Of a stretch of 64,000 nucleotides of DNA, positions 105 through 54,994 are shown in pieces. Every line of letters starts with the position of its first letter. Position 1 is the first letter of the stretch. This DNA comes from Candidatus Cloacimonetes bacterium HGW-Cloacimonetes-3. Its GTDB lineage: Bacteria > Cloacimonadota > Cloacimonadia > Cloacimonadales > Cloacimonadaceae. The notes beneath the pieces were generated by a model. It was not told where the DNA came from. It searched no databases and saw only the letters and a program-made list of their open reading frames with translations. Location of the stretch: NCBI GenBank assembly GCA_002840645.1, contig PHBO01000007.1:1-64000 (forward strand), written 5' to 3'. The translations under genes and the position numbers were made by a program.

Positions 105-143
105 CCCGTAACCCTCCCGTATCCGATACGGGAGGGTTACGGG
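105..143. repeat. 39-bp perfect palindrome, family B copy 1
   Basis: Two 19-base arms (CCCGTAACCCTCCCGTATC and its reverse complement) are separated by one base. A near-identical copy lies at 29750-29789, and the left flanks are also alike (GCTTGC followed by CCT and an AT-rich stretch). The rest of 28-443 holds no gene that I can support. A TTGACA at 347-352 could be a -35 box for the next gene, but no good -10 follows it. Confidence 0.75.
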
Positions 144-19294: not shown

Positions 19295-20344
19295 ATGATA
19301 AAACCGGATAGAGCAGAAGTGCTCCGCCTGCTGTCTGTTACAGACAAGGCAGAGTTAACCCAGCTATTTCAGCGGGCATACGAAGTTAAAAAACAGTTCG
19401 TGGGTACCAAAGTGTATTTCAGGGGCATTGTAGAGCTTTCCAACGTGTGCAAAAAGAACTGCTATTATTGCGGGATCAGAAGCGGTAACAGCGATGTTGA
19501 ACGCTTCACGCTTAGCAAAGATGAAGCCGTAACCTCCGCCTTGTGGGCATACGACCAGCAATACGGCTCTGTGGTTATCCAATCCGGAGAGCGCGATGAT
19601 GCGCAGTTTGTGGATTTTATCGAGGATATTGTTAGCACTATCAGGGAAAAAAGCAATCACGAACTTGGCATAACCCTTTCCTTAGGCGAACAAAGCGAAG
19701 AAACATACAAAAGATGGTATGCTGCCGGTGCACACCGCTATCTGCTGCGCATAGAGACCTCCAACCGCGAGCTTTACCGCAAGCTGCACCCCGCAGATCA
19801 CGACTGGGAATACCGGGTGAACTGCATTCGTACCCTAAAGCGTATCGGCTATCAAAGCGGGACGGGCGTGATGATCGGCTTGCCATATCAGACTCTGGAG
19901 CATCTGGTGGATGATATTATGTTCTTCTACGATGAGGATATAGACATGATCGGCATGGGACCCTTTATCCCCCACGAAGATACCCCGCTGGCTAATGCAC
20001 TGCCCGAATACAACGAAGCGGAGCATCTGGATTTGGCACTTAAAATGATCGCTGTATGCCGCATAGTGCTAAAAGACGTGAATATCGCCTCTACTACCGC
20101 ACTACAAGCACTGAAATCCGATGGTAGGGAAATGGGGCTGCTGGCGGGAGCCAATATCATCATGCCCAACATAACGGACACCAAATACCGCGGCAACTAC
20201 CAGCTATACCGCGGAAAGCCATGCCTGGACGAGAACGCCAATCTGTGCCGGGGTTGCCTGGAAAAGCGTATCTCAAGCATCGGCGAAGAAATAGGCTACG
20301 CCCAGTGGGGGGATTCCCCGCATTATCACAAGCCGGATAGTTGA
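19295..20344 (+). CDS. hydE: [FeFe]-hydrogenase H-cluster maturase HydE
   Basis: A radical SAM enzyme of 349 residues required to build the [FeFe]-hydrogenase active site. The radical SAM cluster motif CKKNCYYC lies at about residues 52-59, after the HydE-like YFRGIVELSNV. The optional second cluster of HydE is present as CX7CX2C near the C-terminus (CLDENANLCRGC). QSGERDD and GTGVMIGLPYQT are further family segments. The PylB and BioB relatives lack this second motif arrangement. It stands alone here: hydF, hydG and the hydrogenase itself are not in the window. Confidence 0.95.
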   Translation: MIKPDRAEVLRLLSVTDKAELTQLFQRAYEVKKQFVGTKVYFRGIVELSNVCKKNCYYCGIRSGNSDVERFTLSKDEAVTSALWAYDQQYGSVVIQSGERDDAQFVDFIEDIVSTIREKSNHELGITLSLGEQSEETYKRWYAAGAHRYLLRIETSNRELYRKLHPADHDWEYRVNCIRTLKRIGYQSGTGVMIGLPYQTLEHLVDDIMFFYDEDIDMIGMGPFIPHEDTPLANALPEYNEAEHLDLALKMIAVCRIVLKDVNIASTTALQALKSDGREMGLLAGANIIMPNITDTKYRGNYQLYRGKPCLDENANLCRGCLEKRISSIGEEIGYAQWGDSPHYHKPDS

Positions 20345-22450: not shown

Positions 22451-23815
22451 TTAGTAAACCAGATACAACAGCAGCAGTGGGAGCACTACCGCACAGCACA
22501 GTAATGCTATCTGAGGCAGGTACCGGCTAAATGGGAGTTTGGTGCGAGCTTTGCCCGCCCCCATGGTAATTGCCAGCGAAGCGCATCCCAGTCCATACGC
22601 TATGATAGCCAGAAGGATAAAAAAGGCTATAAGTACTATGATGTTTCCGCTGGCGATAAGGGCAAAGGCAATGTAGAATTCACTGAGAAACAAAGGTGAA
22701 GGCGGCATACCGATAATAAACATAAAACTAATCAGCCATAACCAGCCGGATATAGGGTTTTTGGCAAGCAATCCGCTACATTGGTCATAATCCTTCTTGC
22801 CAAAGATGCCATACACATTCCCCGCCGTGAGGAAGAAAGCAGCCTTGATCATGGAATGCCCCATCACATGGATAAGCCCTGCTTTGCCCGCATATTCACC
22901 CAAGGCAAAGGCGATCATGACAATACCCATGTTTTCGATGGAGGAGTATGCCAGCATGCGTTTGTAGTTCTTTATCTTTAGCATAAATACTGCAGCCACA
23001 AACATCGAGATTAGCCCCATAGTGATAAACAACTGAGAAGCTAAGCCACCTAAGTGACAGGCATTCATCACTTCCTGCATGCGGATAAGAGGCAATAAAG
23101 CCGTGTTTAGCAAAGCTCCCGATAATAATGCCGATACCGCCGCCGGAGCTTCCGAATGTGCATCCGGTAGCCAGAAATGTAGGGGAGCTAAGCCCACCTT
23201 GGTGCCAAAACCAATCAGCATAAAAACAAAAGATACTTTCAGCCAAAAGGGTGTGATTGTTTCTGCAAGAGTTAGGATTGTATCTATCGCAAGGCTGGAA
23301 GCAGTTGGCATGGCTATCACCAGCAACAGGATGCCCACAAAAGCCATAGCGATACCAATGGAGCAGATAAATAAGTATTTCCAGGCAGCTTCCAGGGATT
23401 GCTTGTGATGCTCGAAGCTGATAAGTAAAGCACTGGCAAGAGTGGTGGTCTCCACAAACACCCAGATAAGCCCCAAATCACGACTGAGGTTTGCCCCGTC
23501 CATAGATGCCACGAAAGCCATCATACATATTGCGTATATGCTGCTTTGACGGTTCGATAGGCTGCCTTTTAGTTGCAAAGAATATAGCCCCACTGCAAAG
23601 TACAATATAGCTGAGATGATAAAGAACCAGATGCTTAAGCCATCTATACCGAGAAACTCAGGCAATCCGGAGGAAGGCAGGACAAAGGCAATCCCCGCAA
23701 ATAGATGCAGGATACTGTGCGCAAACACCAGTGCCGAATTGAGGCTTTTATTCTTGAATCTCCACGCCAGTATTCCCGCCAAAATGGGGAACAGCCAGAT
23801 ATACAAATATAACAT
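22451..23815 (-). CDS. Ehr-like complex: proton-pumping NuoN/HyfF-like subunit
   Basis: 454 residues, about 13 to 14 membrane helices, belonging to the antiporter-like proton-conducting subunits of complex I and group 4 hydrogenases. Signature segments are GLIWVFVETTTLASALLI (the conserved glutamate of helix 5), the lysine-bearing GFGTKVGLAPLHFWLPDAH, and YSSIENMGIVMIA. The HyfF-like form is shorter than NuoL and lacks its lateral helix. It is the last gene of a six-gene minus-strand operon and should form one proton channel of the complex. Confidence 0.9.
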   Translation of the reverse strand: MLYLYIWLFPILAGILAWRFKNKSLNSALVFAHSILHLFAGIAFVLPSSGLPEFLGIDGLSIWFFIISAILYFAVGLYSLQLKGSLSNRQSSIYAICMMAFVASMDGANLSRDLGLIWVFVETTTLASALLISFEHHKQSLEAAWKYLFICSIGIAMAFVGILLLVIAMPTASSLAIDTILTLAETITPFWLKVSFVFMLIGFGTKVGLAPLHFWLPDAHSEAPAAVSALLSGALLNTALLPLIRMQEVMNACHLGGLASQLFITMGLISMFVAAVFMLKIKNYKRMLAYSSIENMGIVMIAFALGEYAGKAGLIHVMGHSMIKAAFFLTAGNVYGIFGKKDYDQCSGLLAKNPISGWLWLISFMFIIGMPPSPLFLSEFYIAFALIASGNIIVLIAFFILLAIIAYGLGCASLAITMGAGKARTKLPFSRYLPQIALLCCAVVLPLLLLYLVY

Positions 23816-23820
23816 CGCTC

Positions 23821-24456
23821 TTAATCCCTCAAGGTGGAAAGCTCGTCGCTATCCACTTCCTCAAAAGTGCTGTTTATCTTGTTCAGGAACAGCACCAAAA
23901 TAAGAATTGAGAGCAGTATATCCAGAGACACTCCCAGGCTTACCACATGCGGCATTTGGCTGCCCAATGCCAGGGATAAGAGAAAGATGCCATTTTCCAT
24001 AATCAGATAACCCATCAGGTGGGTAATCAGTTTCTTGTTAGCAATAATAATGAACAATCCCTTCAGGATGGCGGCAAAGGCAATACCAAAATGCAGGGGA
24101 TAGAGGTTTTGGTTACTCTTACCGCTCCACAGAGCAATGAAGAAAGCAAAGGCAAAGATTGCCGTCATAGAACCCAGCGAAAAGAAGTTTGATACCGAAG
24201 GCTCAACCTCGCGCTTGATGCCGTTCTTGCGGATGGTGTCCAATATGAACCAGGGAATCAGAACCGCTTTAAATACAATTGTTTCCAGTGCTACAAAGGC
24301 GAACTCCCACATGTTGATTTCGTTTGTCTTCAGGATAGTAAGCACAAACAGGATTAAACCCTGTACAATAAGTATCCTGGCAATGCTGGATAGCATATTG
24401 GTGATGGAGGCAAACAGCAGGCTTACTCCAAATAATACCAGCAGGATGTCTGCCAT
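23821..24456 (-). CDS. Ehr-like complex: HyfE-like membrane subunit
   Basis: 211 residues from the ATG at 24456, with a G-rich Shine-Dalgarno close upstream and the stop of the preceding gene two bases away. About six or seven membrane helices. The N-terminal part resembles the HyfE/NuoK-like small subunit (ADILLVLFGVSLLFASITNM) and the C-terminal part GYLIMENGIFLLSLAL carries the conserved glutamate of this family. Its position between the NuoH-like and NuoN-like genes matches hyf-type operons. Confidence 0.85.
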   Translation of the reverse strand: MADILLVLFGVSLLFASITNMLSSIARILIVQGLILFVLTILKTNEINMWEFAFVALETIVFKAVLIPWFILDTIRKNGIKREVEPSVSNFFSLGSMTAIFAFAFFIALWSGKSNQNLYPLHFGIAFAAILKGLFIIIANKKLITHLMGYLIMENGIFLLSLALGSQMPHVVSLGVSLDILLSILILVLFLNKINSTFEEVDSDELSTLRD

Positions 24457-24457
24457 A

Positions 24458-25375
24458 TTATATCCCCCCCAAATTGTGCACAATCAAGGCAGCAAGCACC
24501 AGTAAAGCTATGGAAAGCGGAATAATTACCAGCTCCAGATTACGGCTGATGCGATAACGCGGCATCAGGCTTTCCACCAGCCCGGCAAGCACCGCAAGTG
24601 CTAAGCTGCACAGCAGGAAAACAGCAGTTATCATTGTGCCGCCCATGCCTTCGGGGATAAGGAAATAGCTGATCAGCGAGGCATATATCTGCACTTTCAA
24701 AGCTGCCGTATAGTGTACAAAAGCAAGGTTTACCCCGGAAGTATCCAGCACCATAACTTCGTGGATCATGGTTAGCTCCAGATGGGTTGCAGGGTCGTCA
24801 AAAGGAACCCGAGAGCCTTCCACCAGCAGCATGATAAAAAGTGCCAAAGCCGTGAGCACCGCTATAATTACAGACCACTCGTTGTGTATATTTACGGTGT
24901 GCCGGTAAAACAGCTGTCCCATAGTGTCGAAGCCACCTGCATAGGCAAGAGAACCAATAATTAGCAGAAAAGCAGGCTCCAGAAATGCCGTGAAGGATAT
25001 CTCGCGGGATGCACCCATGCCTTCGAAGCTGCTGCCTACATCCATTGCAGCCAGCACCATCACCGCTTTCGCCAGTGCCAGCAGCGACATGAAGAGGAAG
25101 AAATCTCCGCGAAAGCCCAAGACTGCGCTCTTAGCCCCAAAGGGTACAAGTAATGCTGCCACAAAGGTTGCCGCCAATGCCAGGGAAGGTGCCCAGCGAA
25201 AGATATGGCTGCTGCTGTGGCTGTGTACTTCGGTTTTGCCCAATAATTTGGCGCAGGTGTAGAAGGGTTGCAGGATTGTGGCACCTTTTCTGCCTGCCCA
25301 CACAGCTTTGGTCTTGGTAATAATCCCCATAAACAGCAGAGGCAACACCAGTATCAGGATCATGCTCACTATCAT
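24458..25375 (-). CDS. Ehr-like complex: NuoH/HyfC-like membrane subunit
   Basis: 305 residues with eight or so helices. It is the NADH dehydrogenase subunit 1 homologue that links the hydrophilic module to the proton-pumping arm. Visible signatures are GRKGATILQPFYTCAKLLGK near the N-terminus, EGSRVPFDDPATHLELTM (acidic loop near the quinone-like cavity) and HEVMVLDTSG. The stop of the preceding NuoL-like gene overlaps its ATG by four bases, so translation is coupled. Confidence 0.92.
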   Translation of the reverse strand: MIVSMILILVLPLLFMGIITKTKAVWAGRKGATILQPFYTCAKLLGKTEVHSHSSSHIFRWAPSLALAATFVAALLVPFGAKSAVLGFRGDFFLFMSLLALAKAVMVLAAMDVGSSFEGMGASREISFTAFLEPAFLLIIGSLAYAGGFDTMGQLFYRHTVNIHNEWSVIIAVLTALALFIMLLVEGSRVPFDDPATHLELTMIHEVMVLDTSGVNLAFVHYTAALKVQIYASLISYFLIPEGMGGTMITAVFLLCSLALAVLAGLVESLMPRYRISRNLELVIIPLSIALLVLAALIVHNLGGI

Positions 25376-27309
25376 CGGGAAACCCCCAACACCCAGATAA
25401 GCATGCTTAACAGGGCTAACAACAGATAGGTGATATAGCTGTTGGTTTTACCATTGTGAATACCGTCAAAGTACTTAAACAGGCTTCTGATAGCTTTACA
25501 GAGGTTTGTTATTATCCCCTTGTCCAGATAGTCCCGCACTTCCTCATGATACTCCATCCGCGTGGGGAAATATCCTTCCACTACCTGTTTATCCGAGGTT
25601 TTGTGCATAAATGGCTTCAGGAAATAGCCCAGCGGGTTTATATAGGCACTCCCGGTATATTGCATGCGCGGGCTTGGCTTGCCGTATCCGCAACCCCAGG
25701 TGGGTGCCTTGCTGATTATAGCTACGCGGTGCTTAAATACATAAATCACTGCAAAGCAAAATATTAAGAGAAGCAAAACAGCACTGATGATATTCAGGCT
25801 TGTGCCGAAACTGCTTAATACTGCAATATCCAGGTGGAAAGCCGCAGATAGCGGCATCAGCATCCTCAAACCCAGATTAGCAAATACTCCCAGCACCAAA
25901 CATGCAATAGCCAACAGCCCCGGACTAAGCAACATGCCCATCGGCACCTCTTTGGCTGTAGTTGCTTGCGGGGAGCGGGGTTCTCCGCTAAACACAATGC
26001 TATAAAGTTTAGAAAAGGCAATCAGCGCAAGTGCGCTTACAAAAGCCAGAACAGCAGCTGCCACCACCACAGAGAGCGTACTGCTTAGGTTACTCTCTCT
26101 GAAACCATTCATAATACCCAGAAAGATCGTGAACTCCGAGATAAAGCCATTCATTACCGGTAAAGCTGAGATTGCAGCCGTGCCAAGCAGGAAAAGCAAT
26201 GCGGTTATAGGCATTCTCTTGCTTAATCCGCCCAGACTATCCTGCTCCAGAGTATGCGTGCTTACCAGAATATTCCCGCTTAGATAAAAGAGCATCGGTT
26301 TGAACAGGGAGTGGTTAAGCAGATGCAGCATTGCTCCGGCAAAGCCAAGAGTTGCCATTACAGGGTTGCCTGTTGCTCTGCCCAGCAGCCACAGACTTAA
26401 ACCAATCCCGATGATGCCGATATTCTCTATGGATGAATACGCCAATGCACGCTTGATATTCGTTTCTGCCAGAGTGTGGATCACGCCGTTAAATGCCGTA
26501 ATCAACGCGATAAACAGCAGAATATACACTTCATAGGGTTGCCAGCTTGCCCGGTTCAGCACCATGATTATCCCGAAGATACCTGTCTTGATCATCAAGC
26601 CGGACATCATGCCAGACAGATGCGCCGGAGCAACAGGATGCGCCTTGGGCAGCCAGGAGTAAAAGGGAAAGAACCCTGCTTTGAAGGCAAAACCAACCAG
26701 CAGCAACCACTTTGCCAATCCATAGAGGGGCGCAGCTCCGAAATTCAGGCTTCCGCTTTGGCTGTATAGCAACCCGAAACCAAGCAGCAACACCGCAGCT
26801 CCCACATGCATCATCACAAAGTAGTACAGAGCATTGGCAATTGTTTCCTTGTTTCCCCGGTCTTGCAGGATGGCAAAAAAGGAAGCCAGACTCATCATTT
26901 CCCAGGCTATCATAAACAGCAGGCTGTGGCGCAGCATCAGCACAAAGTGCATGCTAAGCAACATTAGCCCGATATAGAACAGGTGAGATTTTATCCCCTT
27001 TCCGGGGTGCGCTTTCAGATAAAAATGCCCATAGACAATGCCCCAAATGGAGCCGAAGGCAAAGATCATGCCTACAAAGGCAGCCAATGGGTCTATCACC
27101 ACATCCGCCAAGCCAATAAAACCGGGCAGATTAAGGACATAAGCCTGCACTTGCCCGCTAAACAGAACTTTTGCATAGCCAAAAAGCATAGTTATGGCGG
27201 ACAGAGAACTAAGCAGCATAAACCGCAGCGATATGCATTCTGTTTTTGCCCTGTCGGTAAGCAGTATCAGCAGGGCAACTGTCATTATTACTATGCCGTA
27301 GGTGATCAT
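25372..27309 (-). CDS. Ehr-like complex: large proton-pumping NuoL/HyfB-like subunit
   Basis: 645 residues from the ATG at 27309, which overlaps the preceding stop as ATGA and has AGGAAGG upstream. A longer frame to 27408 lies inside the neighbouring gene and is rejected. About 15 to 16 helices form the antiporter-like domain, with SLLFMIAWEMMSLASFFAIL (conserved glutamate), GFAFKAGFFPFYSWLPKAHP (conserved lysine) and YSSIENIGIIGIG. The C-terminal extension carries a loop (TWGCGYGKPSPRMQYTG) typical of HyfB-like proteins, and a terminal helix. Confidence 0.92.
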   Translation of the reverse strand: MITYGIVIMTVALLILLTDRAKTECISLRFMLLSSLSAITMLFGYAKVLFSGQVQAYVLNLPGFIGLADVVIDPLAAFVGMIFAFGSIWGIVYGHFYLKAHPGKGIKSHLFYIGLMLLSMHFVLMLRHSLLFMIAWEMMSLASFFAILQDRGNKETIANALYYFVMMHVGAAVLLLGFGLLYSQSGSLNFGAAPLYGLAKWLLLVGFAFKAGFFPFYSWLPKAHPVAPAHLSGMMSGLMIKTGIFGIIMVLNRASWQPYEVYILLFIALITAFNGVIHTLAETNIKRALAYSSIENIGIIGIGLSLWLLGRATGNPVMATLGFAGAMLHLLNHSLFKPMLFYLSGNILVSTHTLEQDSLGGLSKRMPITALLFLLGTAAISALPVMNGFISEFTIFLGIMNGFRESNLSSTLSVVVAAAVLAFVSALALIAFSKLYSIVFSGEPRSPQATTAKEVPMGMLLSPGLLAIACLVLGVFANLGLRMLMPLSAAFHLDIAVLSSFGTSLNIISAVLLLLIFCFAVIYVFKHRVAIISKAPTWGCGYGKPSPRMQYTGSAYINPLGYFLKPFMHKTSDKQVVEGYFPTRMEYHEEVRDYLDKGIITNLCKAIRSLFKYFDGIHNGKTNSYITYLLLALLSMLIWVLGVSR

Positions 27310-28058
27310 TTCTGCCTTCCTAGCAGGCTCATGATGCCATGGAGGATACTTAGCGGATGCGCCGGACAGCCCGGTATAAACAATGCGGGTTGCATCGTGT
27401 TTAGCCATTCACGGTTTAACGCTTCACTCCCGGCAAACACCCCTCCGCTGATAGCGCAACTGCCACACAGGATTAGTGCCTTAGGCTCCGGAATAGCTTC
27501 CCATGTTTGCTGTAAGGCAAAAGCCATATTTGCCGAAACCGGCCCCGTAAGTATCAAAGCATCAGCATGACGCGGGGAGGCAAGCACCTCGATACCATAG
27601 CGTCCCATATCAAAATTTACATTGCTGCAGGCACCCAGTTCCAGTTCGCAGGCATTGCAGCCGGCAGCAGATACATTGCGCAGTGCAAAAGAACGCCTGA
27701 AGTGTTTGCGTAGCTTCGCATTAGCTTCCACAACCGGCTTGGTGCATGTTTGGCTTTCTTTGTCCCACTTTATTATCAAGCCTTCCCGGCTGCTGCTTGC
27801 CATGCGGTAATCCGGTTTAAACACGAAAGTATCGGGAAAACGTCGGCTGCATTCTCCGCAGAAACAGCATTTGCCCATATCCAGACTGAACTTGCCAATT
27901 GCCTTGGTGGGGCATAGCTGCTCCGCCTGGTCAAAATCCTCTTCATTTGCCCCCAATATCACTGCTAAGCCCGGAAACGAAGGATGAATAGCCACTTTCA
28001 GCGGATCAGGGATTGCCTGATAGCCATGCGTCAGCCTGGCTTTTAAGAGATCAAACAC
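27306..28058 (-). CDS. Ehr-like complex: NuoB/HyfI-like small subunit with N-terminal ferredoxin module
   Basis: 250 residues starting at GTG, with GAGG upstream. Residues about 45-80 contain CPTKAI and CCFCGEC, enough cysteines for one [4Fe-4S] cluster. Residues about 130-250 are the NuoB-like domain with all four ligands of the terminal cluster: CNAC, LCGSCAISGG and PGCPAHP. This is effectively HyfH fused to HyfI. It passes electrons toward the interface with the large subunit. It lies nine bases after the large-subunit gene. Confidence 0.92.
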   Translation of the reverse strand: MFDLLKARLTHGYQAIPDPLKVAIHPSFPGLAVILGANEEDFDQAEQLCPTKAIGKFSLDMGKCCFCGECSRRFPDTFVFKPDYRMASSSREGLIIKWDKESQTCTKPVVEANAKLRKHFRRSFALRNVSAAGCNACELELGACSNVNFDMGRYGIEVLASPRHADALILTGPVSANMAFALQQTWEAIPEPKALILCGSCAISGGVFAGSEALNREWLNTMQPALFIPGCPAHPLSILHGIMSLLGRQK

Positions 28059-28067
28059 TGCTCTGCC

Positions 28068-29534
28068 TCATAAATCCGCTCCGCAATATGAGAGATCAAA
28101 ACTCTTGTTACACAGCGGGAAATCCGATATCCCTTCGTTGCGCACCGCCAGAGCCAGCCCGAACCAGTTATGCAAGGAGGGATCATAAACCTTGTATTGT
28201 TCCGTGCTGCCGTCTGCGGCGGTCTTAATCACGTGCACTATTCTGCCCCGCCAGCCTTCCACAACCGAGACCGCCATAATATCTGCCCCGGGAGCCGATA
28301 ACACTGTGGAATCCTCAGCCTTTGTATCGGGAAGGGTACTTAGCATAAAATATATCATCTCAAGGGATTGCTTAATTTCCACGTTACGCAGCTTCGCTCT
28401 GGCATACACATCACCGCTATTTTGGATAAGGGGCTGGAAATCTGCATATTCCCGTATGGGGAAGTCCTTTCTGGCATCTACCGCATAACCACAAGCCTTG
28501 GCAGTAATCCCGCTCATATTAAGTTCCTGCACCATCTTAAGGCTTAGGCTGCCGGTGCTGTCGAAGCGGTTCAGCACTCCCGCATCGGCAAACAAGGCTT
28601 TTGTGCAGTTGTCTATCTGTTCTTCAGCTATTTTAAGAGTATTACGCAGCACCTTGTTTTGTTCTGCGGAAATGCCATAGTTCACCCCTCCCGGCTTCAG
28701 CCAGCGTTTGCCAAATCTGCTTCCGCAAATCGCCAGAGAGGAATTGATAACAGTGGTACGCAGTGCAGCAAAGAAGTTCTGACCCGATAAATATGCAATA
28801 TCCCCCGCAAGCGCAGAGAGATCAGCCAGATGCATGCCAATGCGTTCCAGTTCCAGAGCGATGCTGCGCACCGTCTGTATTGCCGGGCTTACCTGCACCC
28901 CGCATAATGCTTCCACCGCCATACAATATGCCAAACCATGCCCTATGGCAGTATCGCCTGCAATGGCTTCCGCAAGCTGCATTTTGGTTCGGATATCTCC
29001 ATCTGCCAGAAGTTTACATACGCCCCGATGCTGGTAGCCAAGCTGGATTTCCAGATGTTCCACCGTTTCACCATGGCAAATAATCCTGAAATGCCCCGGC
29101 TCGATAACTCCCGCATGCACGGGACCAACCCCAACTTCGTGCAGGGCAGAGGATTCACTGCTAAAAAAGGGGTAATCATCCATTTGCGCTTTAGCTCCCG
29201 CAGGATAGCGCAGAGGCTTAAGCCATGGATGCCCCACCGCCTCTATTCCGTGTTCTTCGTACAGCTCACGCTCAAAGATATGAAATGCAGGGATGTCTGT
29301 GCTTAGAGACGGATACTGTCGGTTATCAGGAAATGCAGTGCGTAAAAGCTCTAAGGGCAGTTCCGGTTTTGCCATCCCACATAGCAATTCACCACCACTG
29401 GTGCCAAAATAGAAGAGGGGAAAATAACCCAAAGCAGAAAGCTGCCGAATAGCTGTATAGAAATCCGCGATTTCCATTAACCCAGGCTGTTTCAAAATAA
29501 GAAAAGGGTTTTTGTTTAATACATTAGTATCCAT
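28068..29534 (-). CDS. Ehr-like complex: NuoC-NuoD fusion large subunit lacking Ni-binding cysteines
   Basis: 488 residues from the ATG at 29534, with GGGAG upstream. Residues about 1-125 are NuoC-like (HIFERELYEEHGIEAVGHP) and the rest is NuoD/hydrogenase large-subunit-like (GPVHAGVIEPGHFR, LGYQHRGVCKLL). Where true [NiFe] hydrogenases have the first CxxC (CGIC), this protein reads AIAGDTAIGH. At the C-terminus DPCxxC is replaced by DPSLHNW and FPLCNKSFDLSYCG. It therefore should not bind nickel and fits the Ehr group between complex I and group 4 hydrogenases. First gene of the six-gene operon. Confidence 0.92.
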   Translation of the reverse strand: MDTNVLNKNPFLILKQPGLMEIADFYTAIRQLSALGYFPLFYFGTSGGELLCGMAKPELPLELLRTAFPDNRQYPSLSTDIPAFHIFERELYEEHGIEAVGHPWLKPLRYPAGAKAQMDDYPFFSSESSALHEVGVGPVHAGVIEPGHFRIICHGETVEHLEIQLGYQHRGVCKLLADGDIRTKMQLAEAIAGDTAIGHGLAYCMAVEALCGVQVSPAIQTVRSIALELERIGMHLADLSALAGDIAYLSGQNFFAALRTTVINSSLAICGSRFGKRWLKPGGVNYGISAEQNKVLRNTLKIAEEQIDNCTKALFADAGVLNRFDSTGSLSLKMVQELNMSGITAKACGYAVDARKDFPIREYADFQPLIQNSGDVYARAKLRNVEIKQSLEMIYFMLSTLPDTKAEDSTVLSAPGADIMAVSVVEGWRGRIVHVIKTAADGSTEQYKVYDPSLHNWFGLALAVRNEGISDFPLCNKSFDLSYCGADL

Positions 29535-29749
29535 TGGGTACTCCCTATAATATCCCAAGCTGTTATGTCAAGTGGAAAATCATTCACTACCTGCTTTGTT
29601 ATACATTTTGAACTAAATTTATTCAACCTCTCCTCCACACAACAGAGAGGGGGATAAATAGGAATATGTGACCAATATCAGCTATTCTTGAGCGCTTTAT
29701 CTCTGCCTTGTCAGCACTACCTTCGGCCTTGCTTGCAGCCTATATTTCT

Positions 29750-29789
29750 CCCGTAACCCTCCCATATCGCGATACGGGAGGGTTACGGG
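29750..29789. repeat. 40-bp palindrome, family B copy 2
   Basis: CCCGTAACCCTCCCATATCG is followed directly by its near-perfect complement (one G:T-type mismatch). It matches the palindrome at 105-143. It lies in the divergent spacer 29535-30095 between the Ehr operon and the GLUG protein. Confidence 0.75.
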
Positions 29790-29911
29790 AGGGTTATCGC
29801 TGAATTATATGCTATATGTATGTAGGTAGTCACTTAGCTTTATTCCCTGAGACCAAGATTCTTCAAACTGAACATAACAAACCAGTGGCAAATTAGCTTG
29901 TTAGATTCGCA

Positions 29912-54227: not shown

Positions 54228-54899
54228 TTACTTAAGCTGTTCGGGGATAACTGTTAAGGCTTTGTGAATCTCAGCAGCATCAATAGCAGTTGTAAAGCTG
54301 GCAAGATTATCGGTGTTCATAATCAGCTTGGAAATATAGGAAAGGGAGAAGAGATGCTGTTTATCGTTATGCAGCAGCAGCATGAAGAAGATGTTCACGG
54401 GCTTGTTATCCGGTGCATCAAAATCAACAGGTTCTGCTGATCGGCCAAACAGGATGCTGGGAGTTTTGATCTTGGAAGGATGCAAGTGCCGTGGGTGCAG
54501 CAGGGCAACACCATTGCCAATGGCAGTGGAGATCAGCTCTTCGCGGGCAACCACAACTTCATACAGCCAGCGCGCATCACGCACAAGTTTAAGATCTTTG
54601 GCTTTTTCGCTGAGGATGCGGATTGCATCGTACTTGTTTTCTGCCGAAAAATCCAGGAAGACGTTCTCGGGGCGCATGTATTCCTCAAAATGGCAGATAA
54701 CCCGCTTTAATGCAAGCATCTTTTCTTCGGTTTCGTTTAGGTTTTCCAACCATTCGTTAAGCGAATCCTCGTCTATCTTCACGTTTTTGCCCACGAGCTT
54801 ACTTTCAAATACGTTCGTAGCTATCATTTCCTGAATTACCCGGTCGGACACCTTTAACTTCTTGGCAGCGTCTGCTTTGGATAAGAATTTCTTTGCCAT
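54228..54899 (-). CDS. Helix-turn-helix protein with PTS EIIA/PtsN-like domain
   Basis: 223 residues from the ATG at 54899, with GGAGG at good spacing; a frame to 54929 is rejected. The N-terminal 55 residues are an excisionase/MerR-like DNA-binding helix-turn-helix (FLSKADAAKKLKVSDRVIQE). Residues about 75-220 are an EIIA-type fold with TAIGNGVALLHPRH, whose histidine aligns with the phospho-accepting one of PtsN. It may be a phosphorylation-responsive regulator. It is co-transcribed with purE. Confidence 0.85.
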   Translation of the reverse strand: MAKKFLSKADAAKKLKVSDRVIQEMIATNVFESKLVGKNVKIDEDSLNEWLENLNETEEKMLALKRVICHFEEYMRPENVFLDFSAENKYDAIRILSEKAKDLKLVRDARWLYEVVVAREELISTAIGNGVALLHPRHLHPSKIKTPSILFGRSAEPVDFDAPDNKPVNIFFMLLLHNDKQHLFSLSYISKLIMNTDNLASFTTAIDAAEIHKALTVIPEQLK

Positions 54900-54994
54900 G
54901 GATACCTCCATATCTATCATGTTTATCAAGGTTTATTGGGTTGGTTGCAAGGTTTAACTTGACAAGGATACGAGAATTTTTTGGGTATGGCATT

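Follow-up and report, generated by a model that had tools for sequence, protein, structure and literature searches.

Energy-converting-hydrogenase-related (Ehr) complexes are said to have been described by Marreiros et al. in 2013 (doi 10.1016/j.bbabio.2012.09.012, as cited in PMC12361115). The MBS/MBX complexes of Pyrococcus, a nickel-free relative within group 4, couple ferredoxin oxidation to ion pumping. Ehr has been published from Geobacter sulfurreducens (GSU0739-0745), Melainabacteria, Lentisphaerae, Spirochaetes, the Candidate Phyla Radiation (CPR), Nitrospira and ammonia-oxidizing archaea (AOA) (PMC7894505, PMC6349859, PMC7304191, PMC10284858, PMC10432482), and we take the subunit names from PMC7894505; a Cupriavidus paper considered as a further source (PMC11540253) concerns ordinary hydrogenases. 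From Cloacimonadota, an Mrp-linked [NiFe] hydrogenase of group 4g is on record (PMC8542988). Here we analyse 64,000 nucleotides (contig C4, positions 1-64000; hereafter the window) of the Candidatus Cloacimonetes bacterium HGW-Cloacimonetes-3 metagenome-assembled genome (MAG; 2.68 Mb, 97.5% complete), whose nearest named relatives are Candidatus Cloacimonadota MAGs. Its minus strand carries, from 29534 down to 22451, an operon of just six genes (EhrL, EhrS, HyfB, HyfC, HyfE and HyfF) which almost certainly encodes an Ehr complex.

An earlier note on this DNA, made from the letters alone, had described six coupled genes for NuoC-D-, NuoB-, NuoL-, NuoH-, HyfE- and NuoN-like subunits, and the profile searches agree: Pfam matches comprise the 49 kDa plus 30 kDa and the 20 kDa families, two Proton_antipo_M, NADHdh and a sub-threshold Oxidored_q2, while NCBIfam shows resemblance to hydrogenase-4 subunits B, E and F. 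By coordinates, ATGA stop/start overlaps join EhrS to HyfB (the latter read from Met34) and HyfB to HyfC, as expected for translationally coupled genes. All six frames are open here and, as far as the contigs extend, in the same-type Cloacimonadota loci. The NuoE/F/G electron-input module is not among the six genes, and a promoter/terminator scan gave no signal above chance. The subunit set, the loss of both nickel motifs and the tree placement with the same lineages are shared with published Ehr. The differences lie in gene order (L-S-B-C-E-F in the window's subclade, against B-C-E-F-L-S in nearly all other loci with enough flank), in a ferredoxin domain with one cluster and in the lack of an HTH-EIIA gene at the operon head. 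E. coli hydrogenase-3/-4 (formate hydrogenlyase, FHL, with HycE/HyfG; 7z0s) provides the nearest solved large subunit and has homologs of HyfB, HyfC, HyfE and HyfF in common with the window, but differs in its intact CGIC and DPCxxC motifs, C-terminal tail, HyfD (in hydrogenase-4) and separate HycF/HyfH ferredoxin subunit.

The identification is carried first by the large subunit, which we compared by alignment to HycE and HyfG of E. coli and to MbhL of Pyrococcus, counting conservation over 60 Ehr rows (EhrL is numbered from the ATG at 29534, EhrS from the GTG at 28058). AIAGDTAIGH does replace CGIC, as had been noted, with A192-T195 (AGDT) as the exact counterpart. The distal site had been placed at DPSLHNW (451-457), which turns out to lie upstream; DPCYSC aligns instead with D480-L-S-Y-C-G485, where C3 has become Ser and C4 Gly and a cysteine, Cys484, stands one position before C4. 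Judged by these aligned columns, all four nickel-binding cysteines are lost in EhrL. Its open reading frame stops three residues past the C4 position, where the NuoD and MbsL rows end too, and the aligned [NiFe] rows run on into the C-terminal tail that is cleaved from [NiFe] large subunits upon nickel insertion. D194, S482, G485 and L488 are invariant in all 60 Ehr rows and position 195 is Thr or Ser in 59 of them; 33 columns are Ehr-specific, and several of these (D194, N476, K477, S482 and G485) sit where the nickel site used to be. Conservation of the C-terminal CNKSF among scan matches is biased because CNKSF was itself a search pattern, which the proximal motif was not.

By sequence and fold the nearest solved chain is FHL HycE (7z0s), followed by complex I NuoCD by fold. 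An AlphaFold2 model of EhrL (mean predicted local distance difference test score, pLDDT, 84; predicted template modelling score, pTM, 0.88) leaves loop 137-146 and the C-terminus below pLDDT 50, and these are among the most conserved parts of the protein. That they fail to resolve in EhrL modelled alone fits, and is consistent with, a pocket that would be completed by partner subunits.

Phylogeny places the subunit in the same group. In a large-subunit tree of 80 rows, with long branches between groups and bootstrap values not fully settled, the 60 Ehr rows including the window EhrL form one clade (100/100) and the Nuo/Mbs rows a separate one (100/100); the reference rows of this tree, none of them a literature-named Ehr sequence such as Geobacter GSU0739-0745, count as Ehr by lineage and motif. 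The [NiFe] rows fall between the two clades with weak joint support (36/76). EhrL lies outside them, and placement inside the true group 4 hydrogenases, which the earlier note had named as fatal to its proposal, did not hold. Motif, gene content and tree thus agree with its assignment to a group that has lost its nickel ligands. A sequencing error, the other objection it had raised, did not hold either, since Ehr-type relatives, all of one family, occur in 20 of the 125 Cloacimonadota genomes and the eleven aligned at full length all lack CxxC.

EhrL belongs to a 17-row Cloacimonadota subclade (100/100). Within its own genus the complex is present in 4 of 9 genomes and absent from members that are 99% complete. 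Another Cloacimonadota genome, G012, carries a separate Ehr lineage with the usual gene order, which means either two or more acquisitions of Ehr by the phylum or ancient paralogs within it. Other Cloacimonadota encode, within the same complex I superfamily, the intact group 4g [NiFe] enzyme with Mrp, which in contrast to EhrL keeps CGIC and DPCYCC, is about 28% identical to it and falls outside the Ehr clade. The six-gene cassette recurs in many phyla (at least 560 encoding stretches in one scan) and is also plasmid-borne in soil bacteria, annotated as NADH-quinone oxidoreductase or hydrogenase 4.

For the small subunit, the claim that all cluster cysteines are kept stood only in part. Complete ligand sets are present for the proximal cluster and for one ferredoxin cluster, but E/F/A/F occupies positions 39, 42, 45 and 74, where the second ferredoxin cluster would be bound. 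By NuoI motif order, we take the retained cluster to be N6b-like, nearest to the proximal cluster, and the lost one N6a-like. Roughly half of the Ehr relatives keep both ferredoxin clusters, some beta-proteobacterial EhrS paralogs have no ferredoxin domain, and all Cloacimonadota orthologs checked keep the complete proximal cluster plus one ferredoxin cluster.

The proximal ligands, present in the window, are not universal in the Ehr clade. In a subclade of 17 genomes from Bacteroidota and Spirochaetota, EhrS C134, C201 and C231 are changed to D, D and N, within the motifs GDNSxE, GTDAISGG and PGNP. The retained ferredoxin cluster and the EhrL GD[ST] and C-terminal motifs are unaltered in this D/D/N subclade, as are the pump residues in the seven loci whose membrane genes were checked. 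All four proximal ligands were lost independently (N/E/E/W) in a Planctomycetales EhrS. Eight genomes searched whole, seven of the D/D/N type and the planctomycete, contain no second Ehr-type EhrS, only NuoB-like proteins at 29-39% identity.

Residues associated with pumping are retained in the window operon and in up to 45 relatives. HyfB keeps E170, K243, K274, K370 and E425, and HyfF keeps E122, K206, K324 and E379; the lysine of transmembrane helix 8 (TM8) is absent from HyfF, likewise in E. coli HyfF. Most acidic E-channel residues are found in HyfC, but 45/45 Ehr have His at the position of NuoH E218, which is Glu in the E. coli HyfC. For NuoK Glu36/Glu72 no reliable position emerged in the HyfE-like subunit. 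Together with motif, gene content and tree, these residues support the earlier suggestion that the complex probably pumps ions.

Table 1. Position in the window of the Ehr subunits and of the motifs discussed in the text.
Feature	Coordinates	Strand	Evidence
EhrL, large subunit, 30 kDa + 49 kDa fusion, 488 aa	28068..29534	-	PF00346 98.5 bits, PF00329 26.2 bits
A192-G-D-T195 at the CGIC position of [NiFe] subunits	28950..28961	-	alignment with HycE, HyfG, MbhL
DPSLHNW (451-457), not the distal site	28164..28184	-	alignment
S478-F-D-L-S-Y-C-G485, true DPCxxC counterpart, C-terminus	28080..28103	-	column alignment
EhrS, NuoB-like, N-terminal one-cluster ferredoxin domain	27306..28058	-	PF01058 83.3 bits; cysteine audit
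Retained ferredoxin cluster ligands C49 + C64/C67/C70	27849..27914	-	invariant in 76 EhrS compared
Proximal [4Fe-4S] ligands C134, C137, C201, C231	27366..27659	-	cysteine audit
HyfB/NuoL-like antiporter subunit, likely start Met34 at 27309	25372..27408	-	PF00361 153 bits; NCBIfam hydrogenase 4 subunit B 452 bits
HyfC/NuoH-like subunit	24458..25375	-	PF00146 98.7 bits
HyfE-like subunit, likely start Met10 at 24456	23821..24483	-	NCBIfam hydrogenase 4 membrane subunit 67.6 bits, below cut-off
HyfF-like antiporter subunit	22451..23815	-	PF00361 172 bits

On balance we lean towards a ferredoxin-fed, ion-pumping Ehr with a small acceptor in the former nickel pocket. Reduced ferredoxin, most likely the low-potential donor, would feed the one-cluster ferredoxin domain of EhrS, from which electrons would move to the proximal cluster. 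In the pocket, bounded by EhrL, EhrS and HyfC, they would reduce a small polar acceptor, neither a proton nor a quinone, and the change in conformation or electrostatics that follows would drive H+ (or Na+) through HyfC/E, HyfF and HyfB. The host genome was counted in favor of a ferredoxin-fed complex: HypD is absent from the MAG, as are PF00374 and any other [NiFe] large subunit, and [FeFe] hydrogenase-family genes, HydE and Rnf point to a ferredoxin economy. With neither the four nickel-binding cysteines nor HypD, the features expected of a group 4 [NiFe] enzyme are missing.

Several points weigh against this scheme. The main doubt comes from the D/D/N subclade, because relatives without proximal ligands that keep pocket and pumps fit poorly with a universal electron path from donor to pocket. 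No conserved redox partner stands beside the Ehr operons, either in the clustered flanks or in four plasmid-borne operons. Donor, acceptor and pumping are, moreover, putative, although a path from ferredoxin to the pocket is the likeliest mechanism.

The same relatives lend themselves to another explanation, possible but unlikely, in which the complex translocates ions independently of redox chemistry or under the control of a ligand, its hydrogenase core serving as a binding and gating module and electron transfer being secondary or lost. It would account for the D/D/N genomes with their unchanged pocket and, for the seven examined, unchanged pump residues, and for the beta-proteobacterial paralogs without a ferredoxin domain; relatives do retain the large-subunit pocket and the pump even where the electron wiring is partly gone. 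Regulation may bear on it as well. In 21 Ehr loci from many phyla, including Cloacimonadota G012, the first operon gene encodes an HTH-EIIA protein with an IPH motif (HTH_17 plus PTS_EIIA_2 in the one protein scanned), which suggests that Ehr is regulated by phosphorylation through the phosphotransferase system (PTS). Against the explanation, the window EhrS and all checked Cloacimonadota orthologs have their proximal and one ferredoxin cluster complete. Taken further, Ehr in general could be a ligand- or regulator-gated translocator built from a hydrogenase rather than a terminal reductase, with optional wiring; we hold this only as a rather unlikely proposal. Its conserved core would then be the polar pocket (GD[ST], NKSF[DN]LSYxG) plus the pumps, with the wiring cut in at least one subclade by D/D/N, and the window Ehr would be an intermediate with reduced wiring.

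HTH-EIIA is of no use as a phylum-wide marker of Ehr: all 123 Cloacimonadota genomes searched have distant homologs, and only the operon-adjacent clade is therefore informative. The window itself has a paralogous HTH-EIIA gene (54228-54929, minus strand), 26% identical to the Ehr-adjacent one.

A reaction like the one suggested for archaeal MBS, with sulfane sulfur or polysulfide reduced at the proximal cluster, is an improbable alternative. The nickel-free relative MBS has such a function and the proximal cluster of the window EhrS is intact, but MBS/MBX belongs to another clade, distant from Ehr in the tree, and comes with the Mrp module and the RICVPEPD motif that Ehr lacks. The genome also has an Mbs/Mbx-type complex of its own, separate from the Ehr operon, on contig C22. 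Mrp-like genes go with it, as does a GltD-like NAD(P)-binding protein, and the NuoD-like subunit of the complex matches MBS 6u8y (E 1e-95). That subunit keeps one Cys of CGIC (RICVPEPD).

Quite improbable is a complex I-like quinone reductase, in which ferredoxin electrons would reduce quinone at the EhrL/EhrS interface. The EhrL fold does match complex I NuoCD too, Ehr has an invariant Asp (D245) at the position of Nqo4 Asp139 and an Nqr-like cluster is present in the genome. The earlier note had thought a quinone-like acceptor conceivable from a NuoD-like histidine in GHGLAYCMAVE, but this residue, H199, is no evidence for quinone because it sits in a GH that [NiFe] subunits carry as well (CGICxxxH). 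In 60/60 Ehr rows Ile and Gly stand where Nqo4 has its two quinone ligands, His38 and Tyr87. For the sole UbiA-family protein (contig C2) the best match is to a prenyltransferase model, with a score slightly below the cut-off, and the next is to geranylgeranylglycerol-phosphate transferases; on these two grounds quinone is unlikely and the hint lacks support. No quinone pathway was found in the Ehr-bearing Riflemargulisbacteria (PMC6349859). The Nqr-like cluster and the incompleteness of the MAG are a caveat to excluding quinone. On contig C25, this cluster includes B, C, D and F, with NqrB short and no NqrA among the proteins scanned. The UbiA protein is in its own right an archaeal-type geranylgeranylglycerol-phosphate prenyltransferase-like enzyme in a bacterium.

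A formate dehydrogenase (FDH) docked on Ehr to form a formate-driven ion pump has been proposed for Riflemargulisbacteria and Saganbacteria (PMC6349859), and Ehr increases in formate-grown Geobacter (PMC7894505). For the present organism we consider it highly improbable: no FDH-type molybdoenzyme was found in the MAG, where the sole PF00384 match covers profile positions 2-84 in a GltD-NuoG-like fusion, no annotated formate dehydrogenase lies beside the four plasmid-borne Ehr operons examined, and no such family recurs in the clustered flanks. The fusion itself (contig C13) joins a GltD-like part, a NuoG-like ferredoxin and a degenerate molybdopterin-enzyme domain. A cryptic hydrogenase with other ligands is scarcely credible, since the conserved C475 and Cys484, one position before the lost C4, might be invoked for it but the four nickel ligands are gone, HypD is missing and 7/60 Ehr rows have Ser or Ala in place of Cys484. 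Equally hard to credit is a decaying operon without function, as its patchy presence in the genus would allow, given six open frames and the conservation, in many phyla, of residues at the clusters, pocket and pumps.

Around the operon, no conserved neighbor gene was found for the window's Ehr type, and the Cloacimonadota loci have hardly any flanking genes in common. The [FeFe] hydrogenase maturase HydE is encoded about 2 kb away (19295-20344, plus strand). Upstream of EhrL, at 29748-29791, lies a near-perfect palindrome, CTCCCGTAACCCTCCCATATCG, which recurs at the start of the window (105-143); it looks like a repetitive element.

The window therefore holds a member of a known family and adds Cloacimonadota to it, where PMC8542988 mentions only group 4g among membrane-bound [NiFe] enzymes; the unexpected part is the D/D/N relatives and the HTH-EIIA-headed operons. 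For one organism the question of the acceptor is narrowed, as it has no NiFe maturation, no FDH and probably no quinone. For the family, the natural series of Ehr complexes, in which the ferredoxin clusters number two, one or none and the proximal cluster is present or absent, makes the question of a redox drive directly testable.

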